DNA of 40,467 bases from Vulcanimicrobiota bacterium (GTDB lineage: Bacteria > Vulcanimicrobiota > Vulcanimicrobiia > Vulcanimicrobiales > Vulcanimicrobiaceae): assembly GCA_019241305.1 (NCBI GenBank), contig JAFAXE010000114.1, positions 1 through 40,467 on the forward strand, in the 5' to 3' direction. The notes beneath the pieces are model-generated. The model had not been told where the DNA came from. It saw only the letters and a list, made by a program, of their open reading frames with translations, and searched no databases. The position numbers were made by a program, and so were the translations under genes. Positions 9,966-18,639 of this stretch are shown here, piece by piece. Position 1 is the first letter of the stretch; every line of letters begins with the position of its first letter.

Positions 9966-10008
9966 AGGGGTTACGACGCGACGCTCGCTTACAGCGCCAC
10001 GAACGCAG

Positions 10009-10176
10009 AGTTTTGCTGTGGCTCTGCGCGGCGACAGTCCCCTTCGGAGACGTGTGCGATTCGTTTCCCTCCGTGCGAATCGCACACTCGACTTGCTCGT
10101 CGCTCCAACATCCGTGTCTCCGCTCCTCGCAAACGCTCCTCAGGGAACCGTCGCCGCGCCTCCCCCCAGCAAAACT
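10009..10176 (+). repeat. Palindromic (foldback, MITE-like) element, copy A
   Basis: The ends form imperfect 30-base terminal inverted repeats (10009-10038 and 10147-10176, 24 of 30 matching), starting AGTTTTGCTG and ending CAGCAAAACT. Inside is a perfect 12-bp hairpin, GTGTGCGATTCG (10052-10063) with CGAATCGCACAC (10076-10087). The segment after the hairpin (18 bases, 10085-10102) and a 23-base block (10116-10138) recur in inverted orientation in copy B. There is no coding potential. It could be a non-autonomous transposable element or a structured RNA. No clear target-site duplication is visible. Confidence 0.75.
10052..10087 (+). terminator. 12-bp perfect hairpin inside copy A, possible terminator
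   Basis: Stem 10052-10063 with 10076-10087 and a 12-base loop. It lies 87 bases after the lipoprotein stop, so it could end that transcript, but no run of T follows it, and its recurrence in copy B argues that it belongs to the repeat element. Confidence 0.35.
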
Positions 10177-10275
10177 CCATTTGCACGTGTTGCGCGACCG
10201 ATCGCCGCGTCGCGGTGAGGAGAAAAAGATTGATAGCTTCAGCAGCGTCGCTGCATTGGCAATCGCAATCAATTC

Positions 10276-10552
10276 CGTGGCGGTGGCGCGAGGGGTAAGG
10301 CGGCGTGACGGTGTTGCGAAGAGCGTTTGCGAGGAGCGGAGACCTGGGGACCCGCGCGCTCTGCGTGCGGGGGCGCGGAGCCGAAGGCGCAGCGCCTTTC
10401 AAATTACTTTCGGGGTCCCCGCGATGCGAAGCATCGAAGGGGTGTCGAGAACGACGAGCAAGTCGAGTGAGCGGTTCGCCAGGATGGAACGAACCGCGAA
10501 CGTCTCTGAGCAGCACCGTCACGCCGCCGAAACCCCTTGCGGCACCGTGACG
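10276..10552 (-). repeat. Palindromic (foldback, MITE-like) element, copy B
   Basis: Core terminal inverted repeats are perfect over 15 bases, GGCGGCGTGACGGTG (10299-10313) and its complement (10514-10528). They extend imperfectly outward to about 10276 and 10552. Read on the minus strand it aligns with copy A: a 23-base match (10321-10343), an 18-base match (10452-10469), and an equivalent hairpin with GCGGTTCG (10471-10478) and CGAACCGC (10490-10497). It differs by about 100 extra bases (10344-10451) made of smaller palindromes, such as GGGGACCC/GGGTCCCC, GGCGCAGCGCC and CGATGCGAAGCATCG. Confidence 0.72.
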
Positions 10553-10590: not shown

Positions 10591-10770
10591 ATGAATAGCG
10601 AGAAGATCCAGTGCGCCAACGACACGTGCCAGTGCGTCGTGACCGCGGCGCTGGAGCCGGGTGTCGGTTCGGCGGCCGAGGCGTACTGCAGCGGCTATTG
10701 TGGCGACGCGGCGACCGGCGAAGAGAGCGACCTCTGCGCGTGCGGACATCCGCCCTGCGACGAGCCGTAA
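10591..10770 (+). CDS. Bacterial metallothionein (SmtA/BmtA type)
   Basis: A 59-residue Cys-rich protein that probably binds zinc or similar metals in the cytoplasm. It has 8 Cys and one His in the layout of the prokaryotic metallothionein family: CANDTCQC near the start, AYCSGYC in the middle and CACGHPPC near the end. Synechococcus SmtA has the same order of clusters, with one more Cys and one more His. The start is ATG 10591; an in-frame upstream ATG at 10537 would add a polar stretch overlapping the end of repeat element B. I see no SmtB-type operator. It ends 7 bases before the convergent lptD. Confidence 0.88.
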   Translation: MNSEKIQCANDTCQCVVTAALEPGVGSAAEAYCSGYCGDAATGEESDLCACGHPPCDEP

Positions 10771-16800: not shown

Positions 16801-18639
16801 GTGAAGCGCGGCAGGAGGCAGCGCATTTCGGGCGATGGGCGCATCGAGATGCTGCTGGCACGCCGTTCGCAGCGGCGCGCGAAGCTGCTGTTTTGGGTGA
16901 CCGTCGCCCTGGCATCGTTTCTCGGATGGCGCCTGTACTGGATTCAGGTCCACGACGGTCCAGCACTCGCTGCAAAGGCGCTAAGACAGCAATCCGCCGT
17001 CATTCGCGTGAGTGCCGAGCGCGGCGCCATCTACACGAGCGATGGCGTCCTGCTCGCGCATTCATTGCCGAGCCGCAGCGTGTACGCGTCTCCAAGGGCG
17101 GTCGTCGATATCGAAGCAACCGCGAAAGCGATCGCTCCTATTTTGCATCAAACGCCCGTTGCCGTCGCGGCGCGCATTCGCGCGATGCCGACATATCACG
17201 TCATTGCATGGAAAATTCCGGATGAGGAATCGAGCGCGCTCTTGCGACTCGACCTTCCCGGGATCACGGTCGACGAGGAAACGAGCGGCAAGCGCTTCAT
17301 CCCTTCCGGCCGCCTCGCGTCCACGGTCCTTGGCTTCGTCGGGCGGGACGACGACGGCCTCGACGGTGTGGAATACGAATTCGATCACATCTTGCGCGGC
17401 ACCGAAGGCCTCATGACCTTGGAGACCGACGAGTTCGCCCGCGCCCTTCCCTTTGCCAAGCCTCATTGGATCACGAAGCCGAAGAACGGCGATACGATCG
17501 TCCTGACACTGGACTCGTACTTACAATACACCGCGCAGCACGTGCTCGAAGAAACCGTCCATAGTTTTGGGGCGATGAGCGGCTCTGCGATCGTGATGGA
17601 TCCCAATAACGGCGCACTCGTGGCGGTAGCGAACGTTCCGAACTACGACGTCAACGCATACGACGCGGTCGCGGCCGACGCGCGCCGCGATCGAGCCGTC
17701 GCTGATGCGTACGAACCGGGATCGACGTTCAAGCTCATCACGGCGACCGCGGCGCTGGAGTCGGGAAAAGTCACGACCGAGTCGCGCTTTCCAGCGCGGG
17801 ATCGCCTTGAGGTCGGCGGCAGCGTCATTCACAATGCCGAGGATGGGTTCATGGCGGGTACCGGCGGCAGCGAACGGCTCGAAGATATCATCGCGTATTC
17901 GCACAACGTCGGCGCCGCGGAAGTCGGACTCTTCATTGGTCGGACGAGGCTTTACCGCATGATGCGCGCTTTCGGTTTCGGTGACCCGACCGAAGTGGAT
18001 CTGCCCGGCGAAAATCCCGGCCTCTTACCCGAACTGCGCGACTGGAGCGCGACCTCGCTTCCCACGATGTCGTTTGGTCATGGCGTGGCGATTACGCCAC
18101 TTGCGCTGATCCGCGCCTATTGCGCGATCGCGAACGGTGGATTATTGTTGCGGCCGCACATCGTGAGCGCGATCCTCGACCCTCAGGGACATCTCGTCTA
18201 CCGGTACGGTCGTGAAGTCGAACGGCGCGTGATGTCGCAGCGCACTGCGGCAATTTTGCGAGGCTTTCTGCGTCAGGTGGTGCTCCGCGGCACAGGGCAT
18301 CCCACTGCGGAGATTCCCGGATATACGACCGCGGGCAAGACGGGGACCGCTCAGGTTGCTGAAGGAGGCGGCTACCTGCCGGGCGCTTACATCGCTTCCT
18401 TCGTCGGCCTCGTCCCGGCGCAAGCGCCTCGTTTCGTCATCCTCGTGAAAGTGGAGCGGCCACGAACCGCCATCTACGGCAGCGTGGTCGCCGCTCCGGC
18501 GTTTGCCAAGATCGCCCGCGCCGCGATGCTGCAAGCCGGCGTGATGCCATCGCCCTCGCCTTCACCATCCGCTTTGCCGGCGCTCGAGAATACACACCGC
18601 TCGGGACATCGACCAACGCTCTCGAAGCAATCCGCATGA
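16801..18639 (+). CDS. ftsI: Septal peptidoglycan transpeptidase FtsI (class B penicillin-binding protein)
   Basis: The transpeptidase that cross-links septal peptidoglycan with FtsW. A basic N-tail and one membrane anchor (about 29-46) are followed by the non-catalytic pedestal (RGAIYTSDG near 74-82) and the transpeptidase domain. The active-site motifs are intact: S308-T-F-K311 in EPGSTFKL, S367-H-N369 and K513-T-G515 in AGKTGTAQ. No PASTA domains follow. The C-terminus carries a short SPSPSPS tail overlapping the start of murE by 4 bases. Length is 612. Start GTG 16801, 24 bases after ftsL. Confidence 0.96.
   Translation: MKRGRRQRISGDGRIEMLLARRSQRRAKLLFWVTVALASFLGWRLYWIQVHDGPALAAKALRQQSAVIRVSAERGAIYTSDGVLLAHSLPSRSVYASPRAVVDIEATAKAIAPILHQTPVAVAARIRAMPTYHVIAWKIPDEESSALLRLDLPGITVDEETSGKRFIPSGRLASTVLGFVGRDDDGLDGVEYEFDHILRGTEGLMTLETDEFARALPFAKPHWITKPKNGDTIVLTLDSYLQYTAQHVLEETVHSFGAMSGSAIVMDPNNGALVAVANVPNYDVNAYDAVAADARRDRAVADAYEPGSTFKLITATAALESGKVTTESRFPARDRLEVGGSVIHNAEDGFMAGTGGSERLEDIIAYSHNVGAAEVGLFIGRTRLYRMMRAFGFGDPTEVDLPGENPGLLPELRDWSATSLPTMSFGHGVAITPLALIRAYCAIANGGLLLRPHIVSAILDPQGHLVYRYGREVERRVMSQRTAAILRGFLRQVVLRGTGHPTAEIPGYTTAGKTGTAQVAEGGGYLPGAYIASFVGLVPAQAPRFVILVKVERPRTAIYGSVVAAPAFAKIARAAMLQAGVMPSPSPSPSALPALENTHRSGHRPTLSKQSA

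Follow-up and report, generated by a model that had tools for sequence, protein, structure and literature searches.

Units A and B, two palindromic sequences in inverted orientation within a 40,467-nucleotide contig (the window, meaning the whole stretch of DNA analysed), are two copies of a dispersed and previously unannotated structured family of Candidatus Eremiobacterota, a little-studied soil phylum. The family combines a fixed folding plan with strong covariation on its purine-rich strand. The best explanation is that A and B represent a dispersed TwoAYGGAY-like structured RNA element that is probably a ligand of CsrA, a reading to which we assign a probability of roughly 0.55, and for which binding, transcription and the means of spread are inferred.

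Units A and B and the distribution of the family

The coordinates and sequences of A and B were correct when checked against the window (Table 1), and their homology in opposite orientation, as proposed in the original prediction, was supported by a longest exact inverted match of 23 nt, compared with a maximum of 11 nt in 500 shuffles. Both copies were also internally palindromic, as described (inverted repeats I3 and I7 in A, and I4 in B), and the compensatory A-T to G-C change noticed in the shared hairpin was present, with GCGATTCG/CGAATCGC in A becoming GCGGTTCG/CGAACCGC in B. When folded, A in the orientation as read had a z-score of -9.1, and B, taken as read on its minus strand, had one of -7.1. 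No match to Rfam at curated thresholds was obtained for the whole window.

Table 1. Positions in the window of units A and B, their parts and the adjoining reading frame.
Feature	Position	Strand	Evidence or remarks
Unit A	10008..10177	-	Inverted repeat I3; purine-rich folding strand
Unit A, model core	10025-10160	-	R1 model match, 72.6 bits, E 2e-13
A outer stem arms	10008..10049 / 10136..10177		Inverted repeat I3; fold (10008..10049 arm)
A first hairpin (long form)	10052..10087	-	Stem 10052-10063/10076-10087 (I7); minus-strand loop contains CACGGAGGG
A second hairpin	10107..10119	-	Minus strand reads GACACGGATGTTG, loop GGA; sequence, R1 alignment
Unit B with outer stem	10285..10545	+	Folding strand; inverted homologue of A; interrupted by insert
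Unit B as palindrome	10292-10535		Inverted repeat I4
B outer stem arms	10292..10323 / 10504..10535		Inverted repeat I4
Extra ~100 nt in loop of B second hairpin	about 10345..10447		A/B alignment
Unit B, partial R1 match	10436-10528	+	15.5 bits
B first hairpin	10471..10497	+	GCGGTTCG...CCAGGATGG...CGAACCGC, loop GGA
Small cysteine-rich metallothionein-like ORF	10591..10770	+	Immediately downstream of B, outside the element

The insert in unit B had not been noticed before; because of it, the R1 model matched this copy only partly. It matched positions 16956-17017 and 17127-17158 of contig C126 of the window genome (G000), downstream of nusG. At an end of this contig (L033) a tandem duplication (~171 nt) covered the 3' end of nusG together with the repeat that comes after it, and this repeat resembles the insert. 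Extra sequence within hairpins was also seen in C201, and two other units of the window genome (L078 in C109 and L080 in C13) had in common an extra ~55-nt stretch within their first hairpin loop, and this stretch bears GGA-type hairpins of its own.

The search for further copies suggested in the original prediction was productive, with many found in the window genome and its relatives. A unit comprises ~140 nt plus the variable outer stem. Using the R1 model, units were detected in 80 of the 149 Candidatus Eremiobacterota genomes, with a per-genome maximum of at least 21 scored copies, the per-genome numbers being lower bounds because no more than 22 candidates were scored in each genome. Unit A was recovered by this model even though it had been left out of model building. 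The window genome (2.8 Mb, 227 contigs) contained more than 20 related copies, which fall into sequence subfamilies. When 84,980 species were scanned with a pattern, several Candidatus Eremiobacterota contigs appeared among chance matches; the full-length matches to the exact pattern came from Eremiobacterota-type contigs only, and high R1 model scores were confined to Eremiobacterota-type matches, YF1.bin71 among them. The Streptomyces matches of the same scan were dismissed as chance or partial (~50 nt).

A fold maintained on the purine-rich strand

Only the purine-rich strand folded well, which is the minus strand for A and the plus strand for B. The original prediction had left the strand open, and the purine-rich one was clearly the constrained strand: its energy was lower in all the units compared (38/38), its z-score was lower in 35 of 38, and G-U combinations made up 4.7% of the pair cells against 1.0% for A-C, an excess that also indicates the purine-rich strand. 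The strand of A as first written was rejected as the best-folding one, since the structure is given by the reverse strand.

In the plan of the purine-rich strand, a long outer stem is followed by a 2x2 GA/GA loop, a short helix and a three-way junction. Two arms leave the junction, each made of helices of 1-3 pairs separated by GA/GA loops and capped by a (G/A)CC-nGGA-GG(C/T) hairpin. The loop GGA was present in 104/108 and 95/108 units for the two hairpins, respectively, and the GA columns were invariant in alignment A1. The outer stem was variable in sequence and paired, with long perfect outer stems above chance in 64% of the units.

A sequence-based alignment of 24 units showed double-sided changes in 34 of the 44 pairs, a number as high in none of 500 shuffles; 92.3% of the cells were paired, compared with 71.4% after shuffling, and the covariation score was 0.573 compared with 0.177 (0/500 shuffles reaching the observed value). 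Shifting the partners by one column reduced pairing to 32-34%. When the alignment was extended to 108 units, fitted to the model and hence biased toward structure, double changes were found in 41/44 pairs and the covariation score was 0.762, compared with 0.184 in shuffles. Covariation was not lost in the larger alignment, and its growth with more sequences, together with the existence of further copies, supports the proposal that selection has maintained the folded form.

Changes were also followed in place. Orthologous sites of G118 and G119, two genomes from one genus, displayed compensatory double changes in the outer stem, from GCTGAGG/CCTCAGC to GTTGAGG/CCTCAAC between L193 and L206, and from GATGAGC/GCTCATC to GATCGGC/GCCGATC between L192 and L202. 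At unrelated sites of another genome, G020, near-identical cores differed by one compensatory pair, and their outer stems were unrelated in sequence and still paired; the sequence of the outer stem would drift freely because only pairing would be needed. Whole units were gained or lost between sister species: at one site occupied in G118 and G119, the joined flanks were continuous in six sister genomes.

Relation to TwoAYGGAY RNA and CsrA

TwoAYGGAY (RF01731) was the sole Rfam family recurring on the units, and its matches coincided exactly with unit coordinates and strand, at 28-44 bits. In an independent phylum-wide search with RF01731 each of the seven best matches fell on an R1 unit and agreed with it in strand; one of them (L205, G119:C118), with 43.6 bits, was the only unit in the 149 genomes above the gathering cut-off of 43 bits, and the six others scored 31-35 bits. 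A and B themselves gave no match to RF01731. This RNA was described from the human gut, gamma-Proteobacteria and Clostridiales (PMC2864571). Binding by CsrA was predicted for it by Gardner and co-workers, who also remarked on its tandem G-A pairs (PMC4333381), and the Rfam clan to which it belongs, CL00106, is named Csr-Rsm protein binding (PMC5753348).

Like TwoAYGGAY, the units have a pair of hairpins whose loops contain GGA, a stem with tandem G-A pairs, and a variable, poorly conserved external stem. They differ from it in their scores, mostly 28-35 bits against the cut-off of 43, and in belonging to a different phylum; in their loops, often AGGAY or CGGAY, the full AYGGAY form being a minority among the 108 units though GGA is kept; and in having many dispersed copies per genome and extended G-A ladders in both arms. 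The units were accordingly rated as TwoAYGGAY-like RNA, and not filed as proven members of RF01731.

With kinship ignored, csrA was encoded in 69/80 carrier genomes versus 32/69 non-carriers, and in the good-quality genomes CsrA was present in 47/50 carriers versus 17/35 non-carriers (Fisher 4e-6). An intact-looking CsrA is encoded in the window genome (C153:36556), and the units carry paired GGA motifs in hairpin loops, as does CsrA-binding RNA. Several observations count against a CsrA role: three good-quality carriers have no CsrA (G009, G087 and G097), genus g24 has CsrA and no units, and the GGA content (6.8 per unit versus 4.8 in shuffles) concerns a motif that is common in purine-rich sequence. 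A unit or partial match was located ~10 kb from csrA in three genomes (G037:C38, G038:C23 and G005:C3).

If the units are CsrA ligands, the purine-rich strand would act as RNA and its two GGA hairpins, spaced by the rigid junction, would be bound by one CsrA dimer, so that each unit might either act locally as a CsrA site or belong to a large set of small decoys jointly titrating CsrA. The sponge RNAs CsrB/CsrC and RsmX/Y/Z likewise present GGA motifs in hairpin loops in hosts having CsrA; they differ from the units in being one RNA with many GGA, as opposed to two loop GGAs in each of many dispersed units, for which no terminator was seen and the role as CsrA ligand is a prediction made here. 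A more tentative extension is that a CsrA decoy RNA turned into a mobile repeat, with dozens of two-hairpin units across Eremiobacterota chromosomes jointly determining how much CsrA is free; if so, each unit would be free to settle beside genes, placing them locally under CsrA control.

What began as an odd pair of palindromes is a structured element found across the phylum, very strongly covarying and carrying no Rfam 15 annotation here. RF01731, a family without known function, gains a second and far larger set of relatives, and the prediction that TwoAYGGAY RNAs bind CsrA becomes directly testable. A further question that arises is whether RNAs with a regulatory role are able to spread in the manner of repeats.

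Genomic setting and competing explanations

The genes around the units were called by a home-made gene finder of simple design. Units occupied gaps between ordinary genes, among them the nuoD/nuoE gap, the rpsN/rpsH gap (from the flanking translations) and a site beside atpG/atpD; other neighbours were tRNA genes, RNase P RNA genes and, in the window, the metallothionein-like ORF, which had no Pfam match. Small cysteine-rich genes of this type adjoined units in two genomes, that of the window and that of L238. The proteins neighbouring units were unrelated housekeeping genes. At its 3' end the folding strand faced a stop codon in 68/104 cases and a start codon in 36/104 (p 0.002), with a median distance of 18 nt to the facing stop codon, and 29 units were located between convergent genes. 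Codirectional gaps contained 36 antisense versus 20 sense units (p 0.04), the commoner orientation being the one that places the weaker fold in the mRNA. Close pairs pointed outward, like A and B, in 10 of 12 cases (p 4e-5), two of the ten being orthologous.

Three features of this setting count against a role as RNA. The upstream gene was oppositely oriented in about half of the units, where transcription of the folding strand would require a separate promoter; sigma-70-like signals upstream of the units were weak (6 vs 1 of 105); and T-runs were nearly absent.

A possible, though in our judgement doubtful, alternative is a selfish repeat similar to MITEs or REP elements, whose purine-rich strand would fold as single-stranded DNA for a transposase supplied elsewhere, its RNA having no role. 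The dispersal of the copies, the near-identical cores at unrelated sites of G020, the empty sites of sister genomes and the placement by stop codons, with the weaker fold in the mRNA, all speak for it. REP/BIME sequences (mobilised by RAYT) and MITEs are likewise dispersed palindromes by stop codons, often in inverted pairs. The units differ from them in their 140-nt length, conserved multi-branch fold on one strand and covariation in place, and in the lack of both a RAYT (Y1) association and a target duplication. The matching transposase sought as a companion of the two copies was not found: Y1 transposases did not track the family, and RAYT/Y1 was rejected as the mover because PF01797 was absent from the window genome and from most carriers. 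Direct repeats in the flanks occurred at chance level (2/107 with at least 7 nt), the ends being uncertain because the outer stem varies. The unrelated housekeeping neighbours also count against a selfish repeat, for which resemblance to a Csr-Rsm clan RNA is not expected, and the compensatory change in place over genus-level time points to stationary copies that are maintained.

The proximity to stop codons and the units between convergent genes could also reflect an element of mRNA 3' ends, either a bidirectional terminator or a protective hairpin after stop codons. We consider this improbable: units are found inside gene clusters of the ribosomal, nuo and atp types, the strand under selection runs antisense to the gene that ends at the unit, and the selected loop detail is not needed by a terminator. 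An intrinsic terminator in particular was rejected, as a T-tract run of four beside the stem was found in just 5 and 10 of the 109 units on the two sides.

At the site of L208 in G119, the corresponding locus of G118 (L289) had no unit and contained a single outer 3' arm, AAAGGCAGGTCTTTC, with no 5' arm, which hints that the outer arm is an inverted copy of the flank or that the unit was deleted there. Origin of the outer stems by inverted duplication of host flank (hairpin-primed template switching), making their complementarity partly mechanistic and not selected, would fit this lone arm and the unrelated, paired outer stems of G020; it is nevertheless very improbable, since it concerns a single site that a deletion in G118 explains equally well, and leaves the inner-helix covariation and the bias of G-U over A-C unexplained. 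Another widespread repeat of intergenic regions, TGTCATCCTGAGC(GCAG/TTG)TCGAAGGA-like, was observed in several genomes (L105, L117, L289 and others).
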